Shown in pieces: positions 1 through 34,276 of a DNA stretch of 42,454 bases (within the stretch, counting starts at the first letter, position 1; each line of letters starts with the position of its first letter). The position numbers and the translations under genes were made by a program. The DNA lies in contig CAMBYC010000006.1 in assembly GCA_945871875.1 (NCBI GenBank), forward strand, positions 1-42,454, given 5' to 3'. Below the pieces are notes generated by a model. It ran no database searches. It was not told the DNA's origin and worked only from the letters and a program-made list of their open reading frames with translations. Source of the DNA: Sphingobacterium thalpophilum (lineage in GTDB: Bacteria; Bacteroidota; Bacteroidia; Chitinophagales; Chitinophagaceae).

Positions 1-816
1 ATCCTGAAATCCGGTAATTTGCTCTGATAACTTCAAAGCATAGCTCATTCCAATGGCTACAGCCTGCCCATGAGTTAACGCATATTGTGTTTCAATTGCA
101 TGTCCTAAGGTATGTCCAAAATTGAGCAATTTTCTTTCACCTTTCTCAAATTCATCATTTTGTACAACCTTGGTTTTCAACAAAACATTTCTTTGAACCA
201 ACGCTCCTAAAACATTAGATTGATTTCTAATTGAATCTATATCTTCTTTTTCCAATTGCTTAAATGCAACAGCGTCTTTAATGCAAGCATGTTTAATGAT
301 TTCAGCAAATCCATCCGACCAAACCAATTCTGGTAAAGTGGCTAAAAAACTATAATCATAAAACAAAAATTTTGGTTGACGGATCACGCCCACCATATTT
401 TTATAAACACCTACATCAATTCCATTTTTCCCGCCAACAGAAGCATCAACCATTCCCAACAAAGTGGTAGGAACAAAACCAAAAGAAATCCCCCTCATAA
501 AAACTGATGCAATATAACCTGCGAGGTCTGTAATCACTCCGCCTCCAACACCAACAAGGGTTGTAGATCGATCTGCCTCCATTTCTATCATTAACCTTAT
601 AACTTCATCAACAGTTGATTGAATTTTATGCTCTTCCCCTGGCTCAATCACAATCAACTCCCAACCAATAAATTTTTCCTGATGGGCCTCAAATACATTT
701 CTATCCGTTAAAACAATTGTTTTTTTCTTATCTACCAACGTATTCAATTGACTAAAAGAAACGTCAAAATAATAATCAACACTTGTAGTAGAAAATTTAA
801 AATTAAAGGGTTTCAT
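1..816 (-). CDS. aroB: 3-dehydroquinate synthase, truncated at window start
   Basis: Open reverse frame of 272 codons from ATG at 814-816: MKPFNFKFSTTSVDYYFDVSFSQLNTLVDKKKTIVLTDRNVFE...; contains GVGGGVITDLAGYIAS, FVPTTLLGMVDASVGGKNGID and NFGHTLGHAIE, typical of AroB. Not in the ORF track because it is open-ended. Confidence 0.93.
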   Translation of the reverse strand, partial: MKPFNFKFSTTSVDYYFDVSFSQLNTLVDKKKTIVLTDRNVFEAHQEKFIGWELIVIEPGEEHKIQSTVDEVIRLMIEMEADRSTTLVGVGGGVITDLAGYIASVFMRGISFGFVPTTLLGMVDASVGGKNGIDVGVYKNMVGVIRQPKFLFYDYSFLATLPELVWSDGFAEIIKHACIKDAVAFKQLEKEDIDSIRNQSNVLGALVQRNVLLKTKVVQNDEFEKGERKLLNFGHTLGHAIETQYALTHGQAVAIGMSYALKLSEQITGFQD

Positions 817-1243
817 GCCAATTTATAATTGTTTTGTTGAATAAAGCCAACTCTTGTTCTAAAGTTTTTGTATGATGATATTCTTCCTGACGGTCAATAT
901 AATCAATGGTTTGTTGCAAATTTCCCGGACTTACAGTAAATGCTGTATAGGTTTCTTGCCAAGAAAAATCCGATGAAATCATCTTTGAAGCATTTACAAA
1001 TTCTGAGGTTCTGTCTTTTATTTGTCTGGTTATTTGCATCAACTGTTGAGTAGGCAACATTTCTATTACTATATGAATATGATCTTCCCCTCCGTTCATT
1101 CGAACAACTTGAATATCATTTTCTGCCAGTGTTTTTTTAGACCATGCAAACAAAAGTTGCCGGAAAGATTTCTTCAATAAAGGTGTTCTTCCTGCAACTT
1201 CTATAATTAAATGCACAAAAAGATAGATTTTAGAATCTTCCAT
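803..1243 (-). CDS. IS200/Y1 (HUH)-type transposase-like protein
   Basis: HIH motif (GGEDHIHIVIEM), FSWQETYTAFTVSPGNLQQTIDYIDRQEEYHH with catalytic-type Tyr and Gln at +4, matching the Y1_Tnp family pattern. Confidence 0.85.
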   Translation of the reverse strand: MEDSKIYLFVHLIIEVAGRTPLLKKSFRQLLFAWSKKTLAENDIQVVRMNGGEDHIHIVIEMLPTQQLMQITRQIKDRTSEFVNASKMISSDFSWQETYTAFTVSPGNLQQTIDYIDRQEEYHHTKTLEQELALFNKTIINWHETL

Positions 1244-1244
1244 A

Positions 1245-2318
1245 TTAATCGTTCATAATCTTATTCTGAAGATTAATTGATTCCATATGAACTGCATCTA
1301 AATATTTTGTAATAAATTCACGGCTTAACGATAATTTTTCACCTTTTACAAATGCTCTTTCTAAAATTTCGTTCCATCGATTGGTTTGTAAAATGGTTAC
1401 ATTATTGTTTTTCTTGTAACTTCCAATTTGTGCGGCAATTTTCATCCTTTGACCAAGCAATAACAACAACTCATCGTCAACCTGATTGATTTGCTCTCTG
1501 AATTTATCTAAGGCAATATGGAAACTTTCAGATGTAATTTCTTCACTTCTCCATTTTATTCCATCTAATAAAGTTGCCAATTGTTCAGGAGTAATTTGTT
1601 GTTTAGCATCACTCCATGCATTGTCTGGGTCGATATGTGTTTCAATCATCAATCCATCAAAACCTAAATCTATAGCCTTTTGAGAAACATCTCCTAAAAT
1701 ATCTCTTCTTCCAGAAATATGCGATGGATCATTAATCAACAACATATTTGGATTTCTTCTTTTCATTTCAATTGCAAGATGCCACATTGGTGCATTTCTG
1801 TATTCGGTATTCCCATAAGAAGAAAAACCTCTATGTATCAGACCCGTTTGCTTAATTCCTGCTTTTTCTATTCGCTCAACAGCTCCAATCCACAATTCAA
1901 GATCTGCATTGATAGGATTTTTTATCAACACTGGTACATCTACCCCTCTAAGTGCGTCTGCAACTTCTTGAACACTGAATGGATTAACAGTTGTTCTTGC
2001 TCCAATCCAAAGGATATCCACTCCAAAATGTAGTGCATCTTCCACTTGTTTAGCAGTTGCAACCTCTACAGTTAATGGCAAACCAGTTATCTTTTTCGCT
2101 TGTTGCAACCATGGCAATCCCTTGGTTCCAATACCTTCAAAACTTCCCGGACGGGTTCTTGGCTTCCATATACCAGCACGTAATACATCTACTTTCCCAG
2201 TAGCTGCCAAACGTTGAGCTGTTTCAATAACTTGTGTTTCAGTTTCTGCACTGCATGGTCCAGAAATAATTAAAGGCCTTTTGTTCCATTTTTCTTGCAG
2301 CAAAGTTGAATTGTTCAT
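1245..2318 (-). CDS. bifunctional 3-deoxy-7-phosphoheptulonate synthase / chorismate mutase (AroQ type)
   Basis: N-terminal DAHP synthase motifs (ISGPCSAETE, LRAGIWKPRTRPGSFEGIG, HRGFSSYG) plus C-terminal chorismate mutase helix bundle (LDKFREQINQVDDELLLLLGQRMKIAAQIGSYKK). Confidence 0.93.
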   Translation of the reverse strand: MNNSTLLQEKWNKRPLIISGPCSAETETQVIETAQRLAATGKVDVLRAGIWKPRTRPGSFEGIGTKGLPWLQQAKKITGLPLTVEVATAKQVEDALHFGVDILWIGARTTVNPFSVQEVADALRGVDVPVLIKNPINADLELWIGAVERIEKAGIKQTGLIHRGFSSYGNTEYRNAPMWHLAIEMKRRNPNMLLINDPSHISGRRDILGDVSQKAIDLGFDGLMIETHIDPDNAWSDAKQQITPEQLATLLDGIKWRSEEITSESFHIALDKFREQINQVDDELLLLLGQRMKIAAQIGSYKKNNNVTILQTNRWNEILERAFVKGEKLSLSREFITKYLDAVHMESINLQNKIMND

Positions 2319-2384: not shown

Positions 2385-3242
2385 CTATTTTATAATTCTC
2401 TTTATCTTATTTGCCTGCTCCATTAACTGCTTTAAATAATCCCAATTTTCTTTCTCTAAACAACTCTTAAACTTCCGCAGTTGGGTTATATGTTCATTGA
2501 GCACATCTAAGATATTCTCTTTGTTTTGTTTCAAAATAGGTACCCACATTTGTGGATTACTTTTTGCCAATCGAACAGTACTTTCAAAACCAGCACTTGC
2601 TAATGCAAAAATCGCTTGATCTTCATGCTCTTTCTCCAATACTGTATTTGCCAATGCAAATGAAGTAATATGTGCAATATGACTAATATAAGCTGCATGT
2701 ATATCATGTGCTTCCGCACTCATTTCCATAATATTCATTCCAATTGTACTAAACATCTCTTTAGCCCAATCCAAAGCCCTTGAGTCAGATTCCTCAGCAT
2801 TGCAAACAATTACCGTTTTGAATTCAAATGCTCCTTTTACCGCTGCTTCTGGTCCACTATATTCAGTTCCCCACATCGGATGTGCTGCTACAAACCTTTT
2901 TCTTGAAGGATGATTTTTTATTAAATTCACCATCGCACCTTTTGTAGAGCCTAAATCTATTACAATTTGTTGGTCAACTTTATCTAATACCATTGGTAAA
3001 ACTGACATCGTTGCATCAACTGGAATTGCAAATATAATTACATCTGATAAAGGGATCGCTTCATCTAATGCCATAACATCATCAACCAAACCCAATTCTA
3101 AAGCAGTTTTAAGATGATTGGGATTGTTATCAACACCAATAATTCTCTGTGCAATACCTTTTTCCTTCAATCGCATTGCCAACGAACCTCCTATTAAACC
3201 AACACCAATAATTGTTACACATTGGACTTCCATCATTTTCAC
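2385..3242 (-). CDS. tyrA: prephenate dehydrogenase
   Basis: Rossmann motif IIGVGLIGGSLAMRLKEKG and AAHPMWGTEYSGPEAA; aro operon context. Confidence 0.88.
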   Translation of the reverse strand: MKMMEVQCVTIIGVGLIGGSLAMRLKEKGIAQRIIGVDNNPNHLKTALELGLVDDVMALDEAIPLSDVIIFAIPVDATMSVLPMVLDKVDQQIVIDLGSTKGAMVNLIKNHPSRKRFVAAHPMWGTEYSGPEAAVKGAFEFKTVIVCNAEESDSRALDWAKEMFSTIGMNIMEMSAEAHDIHAAYISHIAHITSFALANTVLEKEHEDQAIFALASAGFESTVRLAKSNPQMWVPILKQNKENILDVLNEHITQLRKFKSCLEKENWDYLKQLMEQANKIKRIIK

Positions 3243-3244
3243 TT

Positions 3245-4429
3245 TTATATTTCTCTAGCTTTTTTGGTATCAAGAATTCTTGCTTTGGCAGACTTAAATT
3301 TCTCAATATTTGCACAAAGACTTATACGAACATAATTGTTTCCTGCGGTCCCAAATATACCTCCGGGTGTTATAAAAACCTTTGTTAATGACAATATTTC
3401 ATCACTTAAAGCAAAACCATCACTATATTCCTTTGGAATAGAAGCCCATACAAACATTCCTGATTGACTTTTATCGTATTTACATTGAAGCAAATCCAAT
3501 AATTCAAATACCTCAATTCTTCTTTCACGGTATATTACATTTAACTTTTCATACCAATCTTTCCCCAATTGCATTGCTTTTGCTGCTGCAAATTGAACAG
3601 GTAAAAACATGCCGCTATCCATATTGCTCTTAAATCCTAACACCTCGTTAATCCTTTCTTTTGCACCACAAAGCATTCCTACTCTCCATCCCGCCATGTT
3701 TTGAGCCTTACTTAATGAATTCAATTCGATCACAACATCCTTCGCTCCTTTTACTTGAAGCAAGCTCATCGGACTATCATTTAATATAAAACTATAGGGA
3801 TTGTCATGACAAATTAAAATATTGTGTTTTTTGCCAAAAGCTACCAATTGTTCAAATAACTCAATGGTTGGCAATGTGCCTGTAGGCATATGCGGATAAT
3901 TTACCCACATCAATTTAACCTTTGCCAAATCTTGCTTTTCTAATGCTTCGAAATCTGGCATCCAATTATTGATTTCCTCTAACATATAATCTTTGCAAGT
4001 TCCACCCGCTAATTTAACAGCACTCCGATAAGTAGGGTAACCCGGATTCGGGAGCAATACTTCATCTCCTTCATTTAAATAAGTCATGCAAATGTGCATA
4101 ATCCCCTCTTTACTACCCATCATTGGCAATATTTCAGTTTCAGGATCTAAATCAACGCTATACCAGTTTTTATACCATTCGCTCATTGCTTTCCGCAATA
4201 TTGGCGATCCTTTATAATTCTGATATGCATGTACGTTTGTCTTCAAACTTTCTTCTCTCAACACATTGATAACCTCTGGATGTGGAGGCAAATCTGGACT
4301 TCCAATGCCTAAATTGATTACTGCATGACCTACATTGTTAAGGGCATCAATCTCCCTTAGTTTTGAAGAAAAATAATACTCCCCTATTCCGTTTAATCTT
4401 TCTGACGTCTTAATTGATAACATGCTCAT
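3245..4429 (-). CDS. PLP-dependent aminotransferase class I/II (probable aromatic aminotransferase)
   Basis: NPGYPTYRSAVKLAGG, LNSLSKAQNMAGWRVG (PLP lysine region), located between pheA and tyrA. Confidence 0.88.
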   Translation of the reverse strand: MSMLSIKTSERLNGIGEYYFSSKLREIDALNNVGHAVINLGIGSPDLPPHPEVINVLREESLKTNVHAYQNYKGSPILRKAMSEWYKNWYSVDLDPETEILPMMGSKEGIMHICMTYLNEGDEVLLPNPGYPTYRSAVKLAGGTCKDYMLEEINNWMPDFEALEKQDLAKVKLMWVNYPHMPTGTLPTIELFEQLVAFGKKHNILICHDNPYSFILNDSPMSLLQVKGAKDVVIELNSLSKAQNMAGWRVGMLCGAKERINEVLGFKSNMDSGMFLPVQFAAAKAMQLGKDWYEKLNVIYRERRIEVFELLDLLQCKYDKSQSGMFVWASIPKEYSDGFALSDEILSLTKVFITPGGIFGTAGNNYVRISLCANIEKFKSAKARILDTKKAREI

Positions 4430-5285
4430 TAGATTTAATTAACCCATTACGATAAACGCCATAAACATTTAGGCCTTCTGTGAGGGATTCTATTTTATTA
4501 ATTACTCTATTGAATTGATCTAAATTATCAAATTCCATATCTGCATGAAAATTATACTTGAAATCTGATCCAGGAATTGGAAAACTTTGCAATTTTGATA
4601 AATTTACAAATTCATCAGCAATGGCGGATAACACCTTTGCCAAACTTCCTCTAGAATGATCAGTGTGAAAATTTATTGAAGCTTTGTTGGCATTTTGATT
4701 TGCCACAACATCATCTGGTCTTTGTAAAATTAAAAATCTGGTATAATTATTTGCCATTGTATGGATATTGGGGGCAATCGTATCCAAATGAAACAAACTT
4801 GCAGCTAATTTACTTGCAATTGCTGCTGTATGCTTGCTTCTGTATTGATGAAGCAATTTTGCAGAAAGTGCTGTATCTTCAGTTTCAACCAATTTCCAGT
4901 TGTATTTATCCAAATAATCCATACACTGTAAAATTGCCATTGGGTGCGAATGTACTTCCCTAATATCTTCTAATTTTACACCTGGATTTACCAATAGATT
5001 TTGTTCAATTTGTAAATATACTTCTCCAGTTACTTTTAGATTCGCGTTTTGCAAAAGTGTATAATTGGGTAAAATGCTACCTGCAATTGAATTTTCTATG
5101 GCCATTACACCTCCCATAGATTCCTTTAGAGAACTAGCTATTCTTACAACCTCTCTAAATGTTGCACAGGGTATAACTTCAACATCTTCTCCAAAAAAAA
5201 TCCTAGCTGCTACTTGGTGAAATGAACCTTCATAACCCTGAATACTTACTCTTTTTCGTTGCTCAATTTCAACTTTTTGCTTCAT
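4410..5285 (-). CDS. pheA: prephenate dehydratase with C-terminal ACT-like region
   Basis: IQGYEGSFHQVAARIFFG, VMAIENSIAGSI, TRFLILQRP and a C-terminal ACT-like domain. Track ORF starts at 5324 but the natural ATG (MKQKVEIEQRKRVSIQGYEGSF) is at 5285. Confidence 0.9.
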   Translation of the reverse strand: MKQKVEIEQRKRVSIQGYEGSFHQVAARIFFGEDVEVIPCATFREVVRIASSLKESMGGVMAIENSIAGSILPNYTLLQNANLKVTGEVYLQIEQNLLVNPGVKLEDIREVHSHPMAILQCMDYLDKYNWKLVETEDTALSAKLLHQYRSKHTAAIASKLAASLFHLDTIAPNIHTMANNYTRFLILQRPDDVVANQNANKASINFHTDHSRGSLAKVLSAIADEFVNLSKLQSFPIPGSDFKYNFHADMEFDNLDQFNRVINKIESLTEGLNVYGVYRNGLIKSNEHVIN

Positions 5286-5322: not shown

Positions 5323-5350
5323 AAAAAATCCCGCTTTTCAGCGGGATTTC
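5323..5350 (-). terminator. intrinsic terminator of the pheA-operon attenuator
   Basis: Minus strand GAAATCCCGC-TGAAAA-GCGGGATTTTTTG: 9-bp stem, 6-nt loop, U-run, between the leader ORF and pheA. Confidence 0.85.
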
Positions 5351-5368
5351 TTATGTTGATTTTATTTC

Positions 5369-5455
5369 TTATTGGTTGGTCAACAAAAGCAATCCCGCTC
5401 TATTACTAAAATAATAGTTAAAATAAAAGTAACGGTATAATATGCTTTGTTTCAT
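5369..5455 (-). CDS. Phe/Tyr-rich leader peptide (attenuator)
   Basis: Manual translation of minus strand: MKQSILYRYFYFNYYFSNRAGLLLLTNQ*; codons 7-16 are Y R Y F Y F N Y Y F, just before the terminator upstream of pheA. Confidence 0.8.
   Translation of the reverse strand: MKQSILYRYFYFNYYFSNRAGLLLLTNQ
5389..5400 (-). promoter_or_regulatory. antiterminator arm of attenuator
   Basis: Minus strand GAGCGGGATTGC; AGCGGGATT is complementary over 9 nt to AATCCCGCT, the 5' arm of the terminator. Confidence 0.75.
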
Positions 5456-5460
5456 CTAAA

Positions 5461-5492
5461 CAAATATAGGATTTGTTGAAAATAAATAACAA
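5461..5492 (-). promoter_or_regulatory. Bacteroidota-type promoter (-33 TTG / -7 TAnnTTTG)
   Basis: Minus strand TTG-N21-TATATTTG immediately upstream of the leader peptide ATG. Confidence 0.65.
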
Positions 5493-5545: not shown

Positions 5546-7222
5546 TTATTCTCTTCTCCTTCCCCCTCCTGTTTCAGCATCGTTCATTCGGATTGCTCTT
5601 CCTTTGAATTTTTTACCATCCAAAGCCTTAATCATTGTATTAGCTGCTGGTGCTTCAATCTCAATCCAACTGTTCATATCTTTCATGTCGATTTTACCCA
5701 ACACTTCTTTTTTCAAATCACTCATATCAAGAATGAACTGAAGGAAACTCGCTTTGTAGAATCCATCTTTTGTGCCAAGATTAACGAAAAGTCTTTTATA
5801 TTGACCACCACCACTTGATCTTTCTGGTCTTCTATCTCTATCTCCTCCTGAGTTGGAAGAGCGATCAGGACTAATCCTTTCACGTCTTGTATCTTGACGC
5901 ATATTGAGATCTGCAGCGTTTTCATAATATTGTAAGAAACGGTCAAACTCTAATGCCGCAACACGCTGCATGATTTCTTCTTTATCTACAAGGGCAAATT
6001 TCTCCTTCAACAAAGGCAAATATGTTTCATATTCACCATGACTGATGTCTGCTTTCAACAATTTTTCAATAAAATGGAAAAATTGCTTTCGACAAACATC
6101 TTTTCCACCAGGAATATCCAATCTGTTAAAACGATTGTTGCTCATTCGCTCAATTTGCTTGATACGATGTGTTTCACGATTGGTTACCAAAGACAAACAA
6201 ACGCCAAGATTACCGGCTCTTCCAGTTCTTCCACTTCTGTGTGTATATACTTCAGGATCGTCCGGAAGTTCAAAATTGATTACATGTGTAATGCCTTGAA
6301 CATCTATACCACGTGCTGCAACGTCTGTAGCAATAAGCAATTGCAAACTTTTTTCACGGAACCTTCCCATTACTTTATCGCGTTGTTGCTGGGTAAGGTC
6401 ACCATGTAATGCTTCAATATCATAACCTTCTCTAATTAGAGACTCAGTGATTTCCTGAGCATCCAATTTAGTGCGAGTAAATACAATACCATACATCCCT
6501 GGATTGAAATCGATAATGCGCTTTAAAGTTTCAAAACGGTTTACAGCGTTGGTAATATAATATTGGTGATCAATATTTACATTACCCGAATTAACTCTTC
6601 CAATAGTTAATTCAAAAGGATCTTTCATGTATTTTTTACTAACCTGCTTAACTTCATGAGGCATAGTAGCACTAAACAACCATGTACTTTCACGAGAAGG
6701 AGTATTTTGAAGAATAAACTCAATATCTTCTCTAAAACCCATGTTTAGCATTTCATCAGCTTCATCTAAGATGATGTAATGAATTTTTTCAAGATTAATT
6801 GCTTTGCGTTCAATAAGGTCAATCAACCTGCCGGGTGTTGCCACCACTATTTGAGTGCCTCTTTTTAAATCTCTAATTTGAGTAACGATAGATGCGCCAC
6901 CATAAACTGCAGTAACAGAAACCGGAAGATATTTGGTTTTGTATTTCAGTAAATCGTTAGTAATTTGTAAACACAACTCTCTGGTTGGGCAAACAATTAA
7001 AGCCTGAGGAAATTTATCGTCCTTATTAATAAGTTGAAGGGCTGGAATGCCAAATGCAGCAGTTTTTCCAGTGCCGGTCTGTGCTAATCCCACAAAATCT
7101 TTAGTCCCCTGTAGTAAAACAGGAATCGCTTTTTCCTGTATGGGTGTAGGTGTAACAAAGCCCAATTCTTTAATAGATTCTAATATCCCCTCTTCAAGAC
7201 CGAGTGATTCGAATGTTATCAT
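5546..7222 (-). CDS. DEAD/DEAH-box RNA helicase (CsdA/DbpA-like C-terminus)
   Basis: AQTGTGKT, PTRELCLQI, LDEADEMLNMGF, FSATMP, HRSGRTGRAG; C-terminal DbpA RNA-binding-like domain. Confidence 0.95.
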   Translation of the reverse strand: MITFESLGLEEGILESIKELGFVTPTPIQEKAIPVLLQGTKDFVGLAQTGTGKTAAFGIPALQLINKDDKFPQALIVCPTRELCLQITNDLLKYKTKYLPVSVTAVYGGASIVTQIRDLKRGTQIVVATPGRLIDLIERKAINLEKIHYIILDEADEMLNMGFREDIEFILQNTPSRESTWLFSATMPHEVKQVSKKYMKDPFELTIGRVNSGNVNIDHQYYITNAVNRFETLKRIIDFNPGMYGIVFTRTKLDAQEITESLIREGYDIEALHGDLTQQQRDKVMGRFREKSLQLLIATDVAARGIDVQGITHVINFELPDDPEVYTHRSGRTGRAGNLGVCLSLVTNRETHRIKQIERMSNNRFNRLDIPGGKDVCRKQFFHFIEKLLKADISHGEYETYLPLLKEKFALVDKEEIMQRVAALEFDRFLQYYENAADLNMRQDTRRERISPDRSSNSGGDRDRRPERSSGGGQYKRLFVNLGTKDGFYKASFLQFILDMSDLKKEVLGKIDMKDMNSWIEIEAPAANTMIKALDGKKFKGRAIRMNDAETGGGRRRE

Positions 7223-34108: not shown

Positions 34109-34113
34109 CATTT

Positions 34114-34198
34114 CGTTCCCGGGGTGCTGCGGCAAATGCCAACGCTGAGATTATACCCGTAGAACCTGATCAGGATAATGCCTGCGCAGGGAAGGTTA
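34114..34198 (+). ncRNA. TPP riboswitch (THI element)
   Basis: CCCGGGGTGCTGCGG...GCTGAGATTATACCCGTAGAACCTGATCAGGATAATGCCTGCGCAGGGAA: the conserved THI-box segments in order. Confidence 0.96.
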
Positions 34199-34276
34199 CC
34201 GACTTTTATGCGGCTCCTTTCCTGTTTTTGTAAACCCCGTCTCTTTAAAAATCAAAAGAGACTTAAACAAAAACAG

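Follow-up and report, generated by a model that had tools for sequence, protein, structure and literature searches.

Among the described systems closest to the locus analysed here is the enterobacterial pheA attenuator (Rfam RF01859, Phe_leader), in which a Phe-rich leader ORF and an antiterminator/terminator switch stand before pheA. Closer in taxonomy is Bacteroid-trp RNA, the name of which ties it to trp genes. This RNA is a candidate cis-regulatory RNA of Bacteroidota (RF01692; PMC2864571), and the main text of a study of Flavobacterium psychrophilum describes structured, transcribed 5′ elements of pheA and hisG that belong to no Rfam family, together with hints of leader-peptide attenuation upstream of amino-acid operons in Flavobacteriaceae (PMC9723704). 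Given these two precedents, attenuators are better documented in the phylum than the initial annotation of this locus had supposed. The trpL attenuator of Sinorhizobium meliloti places its leader ORF directly at the RNA 5′ end, much as predicted here, but carries Trp codons and comes from another phylum (PMC7298713). The literature searched offered no description of this leader for Chitinophagaceae; Bacteroidota examples might be found in a survey of attenuation from 2010 (Lopatovskaya et al., Mol Biol 44:128, cited in PMC4833913).

In this work, we have analysed a Phe/Tyr leader in a 42,454-nt stretch of DNA (the window), and the sequence argues strongly that the operon behind it is governed by a ribosome-mediated transcription attenuator of the classical leader-peptide type, a reading that we consider very probable. 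The locus shares with RF01859 a leader ORF rich in Phe codons, the antiterminator/terminator switch, and the position before pheA; it differs in having Tyr codons as well as Phe codons, an operon with DAHP synthase and tyrA in it, an ORF predicted to be near-leaderless, and a hairpin, P1, that stays clear of segment 2. With the F. psychrophilum pheA and hisG elements it has the phylum, the first genes, and structured leaders in common, a likeness by description; those elements come from Flavobacteriaceae and are presented in the main text without their anatomy (PMC9723704), whereas here we give the anatomy, the covariation, and the spread in Chitinophagaceae and other families. The mechanism proposed is classical, and what is new lies in the details, namely the wide spread, the covarying P1, and the predicted near-leaderless start. 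The features of the locus, in order of transcription, are as follows:

5546 to 7222, minus strand: DEAD-box helicase gene, upstream of the leader.
5461 to 5468, minus strand: TATATTTG, a Bacteroidota primary-sigma −7 box (TAnnTTTG) 5 nt before the leader ATG; predicted transcription start about 5456.
5369 to 5455, minus strand: leader ORF, MKQSILYRYFYFNYYFSNRAGLLLLTNQ and stop; ATG at 5455, predicted 5′ UTR of about 1 nt.
5408 to 5437, minus strand: codons 7-16 of the leader ORF, the putative regulatory Tyr/Phe codons.
5400 to 5418, minus strand: P1 hairpin, arms around CTATTA/TAATAG; its 5′ arm lies in codons 13-15 (the last Tyr codons), and it directly abuts the antiterminator.
5380 to 5399, minus strand: segment 2, made up of AGCGGGATT (5399-5391) and the extension CTTTTGTTGA.
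5340 to 5359, minus strand: segment 3, made up of TCAACATAAG and AATCCCGCT (5348-5340); the 3′ strand of the antiterminator.
About 5323 to 5349, minus strand: intrinsic terminator 3:4, AAATCCCGCT-GAAA-AGCGGGATTTTTT and then a T run; extended hairpin of −21.0 kcal/mol.
4413 to 5285, minus strand: pheA, prephenate dehydratase with an ACT-like C-terminal part (PF00800); start at 5285.
3248 to 4429, minus strand: class I/II aminotransferase (PF00155).
2388 to 3242, minus strand: tyrA, prephenate dehydrogenase (NF006307, above cut-off).
1248 to 2318, minus strand: DAHP synthase/chorismate mutase fusion (PF00793, PF01817).

The anatomy of the leader mostly bears out what the initial annotation had read from it. 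Codons 7-16 of the minus-strand ORF 5455-5369 include 5 for Tyr and 3 for Phe, and the last part of segment 3 doubles as the 5′ arm of the terminator, both as claimed. Segment 2, said to lie right after the Tyr/Phe codons, is in fact set off from them by codons 17-19, and AGCGGGATT begins 9 nt past the last Phe codon. The 9-nt complementarity between segments 2 and 3 is exact, AATCCCGCT against AGCGGGATT, but the pairing extends well beyond 9 nt to about 17 bp, with the strands GCGGGAUU-GC-UUUUGUUGA and UCAACAUAAG-AAUCCCGC. The antiterminator 2:3 and the intrinsic terminator 3:4 are mutually exclusive.

With pheA, an aminotransferase, tyrA, and the DAHP synthase/chorismate mutase gene in one set, the operon therefore makes both Phe and Tyr, and the presence of both codons in the leader matches this output. 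Past the DAHP synthase/chorismate mutase gene, an IS200-like (Y1) transposase gene (806-1243, minus strand) is lodged inside the aromatic operon; it closely abuts the neighbouring reading frames and is possibly co-transcribed with them, and the gene beyond it resembles aroB, judging the sequence by eye.

The arrangement recurs well beyond this genome. Wherever the available DNA reaches far enough upstream of pheA in a close relative, it holds an aromatic ORF of about 24-31 codons with a terminator behind it, and a covariance model built from this leader (R1) matches in 189 of 296 Chitinophagaceae genomes and 75 of 104 genera, with one copy per genome, so the aromatic ORF and its hairpin are kept in relatives, a check that the initial annotation had itself named. 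The leader is found in 75 of the 82 family genomes that encode this PheA type, as opposed to 3 of the 36 that do not (p = 5e-19, a nominal value as the genomes are related); in the remaining 7 of the 82, the R1 search detected no leader at pheA. Across a sample of the class Bacteroidia, R1 matches in 31 of 289 genomes, and 26 of these belong to other families; all but one of the class-level matches examined precede pheA or another gene of the pathway. One class-level match (L126) was rejected as a false positive in which only a terminator had matched. At two loci the Phe/Tyr leader stands not before pheA but before a different gene, that for the aminotransferase (L089) or that for the DAHP synthase/chorismate mutase (L130), which implies that the leader can follow the pathway through changes in gene order.

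A trivial origin must also be weighed, whereby the hairpin is the mere terminator of the upstream DEAD-box helicase gene and the aromatic ORF a product of chance in AT-rich DNA. The hairpin does lie 3′ of a helicase gene on the same strand, and the end of a helicase-like gene is present upstream in several relatives. Chance is countered by 32 PheA loci from the class or order that were chosen via the protein rather than the leader: 19 have an upstream ORF in which at least 7 of 12 residues are aromatic, and in 15 of these a terminator also follows, whereas 1600 dinucleotide shuffles gave such an ORF in 10 cases (0.6%) and an ORF with a terminator in none. Over a third of the class-level PheA loci in this 32-locus sample have no obvious leader. 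The pairing of leader ORF and terminator is thus a correct observation, confirmed and far from chance. A terminator serving the helicase gene alone is further at odds with the conserved promoter and leader ORF that lie between that gene and the hairpin, with the covariation of 2:3, and with a separate terminator further upstream in some relatives (L028-L030), and we regard this origin as very unlikely.

The codon content of the leaders points back to the attenuator and to codon supply as its signal. Across 83 family leaders, Phe and Tyr account for 80% of codons 7-17; the two remaining frames give 22-26%, and nucleotide shuffles 37%. U-rich DNA would also yield Leu, Ile, and Cys codons; these are nearly absent from codons 7-17 of the same 83 leaders, and Trp is rare. 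The Phe/Tyr enrichment, as read from the leader sequences, thus reflects codons rather than base composition. The leader peptide might instead act by itself, either in trans, a role known for peTrpL of Sinorhizobium meliloti (PMC7298713), or by sequence-driven arrest of the ribosome. Against such a peptide, Phe and Tyr freely interchange between leaders, and the C-terminal part varies both in reading frame and, from clade to clade, in sequence: segment 2 is found in all three reading frames (58:14:8), and the ORF ends over it vary by clade (..AGLLLLTNQ, ..GAFC, ..SSRVVFVKA) while the pairing is maintained. It follows that RNA pairing is conserved, not the C-terminus of the peptide, and an active peptide is highly improbable as the basis of regulation.

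At the RNA level, the fold of the 186-nt leader is 5.1 SD better than that of its dinucleotide shuffles, which again speaks against chance. Folding each sequence up to segment 3 gives a tandem of P1 and the antiterminator in nearly all leaders, mostly with no base between the two. Both pairings exceed what the codons alone would produce, with a mean z of −1.96 against synonymous-codon shuffles for P1 (26 of 30 leaders below −1) and of −1.63 for 2:3 (23 of 30 below −1). On 83 aligned leaders, with an alignment that was fitted to the structure and so favours it, and with sequences that are related, P1 and 2:3 together show both-sided changes in 18 of 22 pairs, 142 compensated cells versus 64.5 in shuffles, and a covariation score of 0.225, which drops to 0.129 in shuffles and does not exceed 0.087 once the partner is slid; a smaller alignment left the picture unchanged. 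The synonymous-codon test and the per-sequence folds are independent of this alignment. On the raw MAFFT alignment, RNAalifold recovered the terminator alone owing to a misregistration of P1 and segment 3, which the model-based alignment corrected.

The position of a conserved, structured RNA ahead of an amino-acid operon would also suit a riboswitch or a T-box-like element, with Phe, Tyr, or uncharged tRNA as its direct ligand. The leader matches no riboswitch or T-box of Rfam, and what is conserved is an ORF with Phe/Tyr codons and two helices rather than a large binding core, which makes direct binding extremely improbable. More generally, no Rfam family matches the leaders at its gathering score, either in the leader region here or at the sampled related loci. 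RF01859 scores 39.5 bits where 55 are required, and it aligns mainly via the terminator and a U-rich stretch, with the family's own helix poorly paired; the covariance model of RF01692 matches nothing in the window, nor in 60 genomes of the family Chitinophagaceae.

Returning to the attenuator, the antiterminator (about −21.7 kcal/mol without P1) and the terminator are nearly equal in energy, so the outcome would rest on kinetics, in keeping with a switch in which timing decides. The initial annotation saw no segment 1 and proposed a minimal three-segment version. This stands insofar as a protector of segment 2 is not clearly present in the sequence; it falls short in that a conserved, covarying P1 lies directly 5′ of segment 2, and codons 7-9 of this leader hold a weak possible protector. 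Over the first codons, the best complement to segment 2 surpasses codon shuffles by only a small margin (mean z −0.77), and in this leader it reaches −6.5 kcal/mol versus −4.1 in codon shuffles (p = 0.04). P1 itself sits beside segment 2 without pairing to it and can coexist with 2:3. If there is no protector, an untranslated leader should read through, unlike in the E. coli scheme.

The ORF is predicted from its promoter to be near-leaderless. Among 83 leaders, 68 carry the motif TAnnTTTG 3-8 nt upstream of the ATG, as compared to 0.7% of background ATGs. In F. psychrophilum, the −7 box is placed at −12 to −5 (PMC9723704), which would give a 5′ UTR of 0-4 nt in most leaders and the value of about 1 nt listed above. 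Leaderless or nearly leaderless mRNAs are put at ~4-5% in Bacteroidota (PMC7366714; PMC9723704).

Conservation, codon content, covariation, and gene context strongly support the Phe/Tyr leader-peptide attenuation proposed in the initial annotation, and from these parts we infer the start site, termination, stalling, induction by starvation, and role of P1. Transcription would start about 1 nt before the leader ATG, and a ribosome would load on the near-leaderless ORF. When charged tRNA-Phe and tRNA-Tyr are both ample, the ribosome would reach the end of the ORF and cover segment 2, so that the 3:4 hairpin forms and the polymerase terminates at about 5323. With either tRNA in short supply, the ribosome would stall within codons 7-16, and P1 and the long 2:3 antiterminator would form before segment 4 is made; with segment 3 unable to pair with segment 4, RNA polymerase would continue into pheA, the aminotransferase gene, tyrA, and the DAHP synthase/chorismate mutase gene. 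Most likely, P1 either stacks on 2:3 or pauses the polymerase, letting the ribosome catch up.

The same ORF and alternative pairings could in principle gate the start codon of pheA rather than transcription. Such translational attenuation would suit the several relatives in which the 3:4 hairpin is near that start codon, and the reported independence of Bacteroidota from Shine-Dalgarno sites (PMC9723704); it is made unlikely by the T tract after 3:4, which is nearly always retained, and by the distance of tens of nucleotides between the hairpin and the pheA ATG here and in other lineages.

Comparable leaders stand before other amino-acid operons. Upstream of hisG in the same genome (L172), a His-rich leader ORF, MKICLHIHHSLQLL, is followed by a terminator, and a relative has MNINNKHHHHLPIGTQTR at this position (L173), with others similar; upstream of trpE (L176), a Trp-rich leader ORF, MINNIKRWWWHNNS, is again followed by a terminator, with MAMINNNWWWHTNS in a relative (L177). 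A search upstream of ilvD yielded no clear leader in this genome and one same-order relative (L189) with an Ile/Leu/Val-rich ORF, MNNKQLSVILSIIISVVNIY, and a terminator, a possible ilv attenuator. Separately, the window contains a TPP riboswitch (RF00059) at 34110-34209 on the plus strand, at 63.1 bits.

More tentatively, and with doubts that somewhat outweigh our confidence, we propose that Bacteroidota may have a distinct, phylum-wide attenuator layout, in which a leaderless or near-leaderless ORF is combined with a hairpin that stacks on the antiterminator without masking it. This hairpin would replace the 1:2 protector as polymerase pause and timing device, and untranslated leaders would default to read-through.

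The Phe/Tyr leader represents a widespread and well-supported attenuator family that is without an Rfam model, in a phylum with promoters and translation starts unlike those of model bacteria. Attenuation by a ribosome on the leader needs close coupling of transcription and translation; the phe, his, and trp leaders would therefore make coupling in Bacteroidota directly testable, and could also show if an ORF that is leaderless is able to time the switch.
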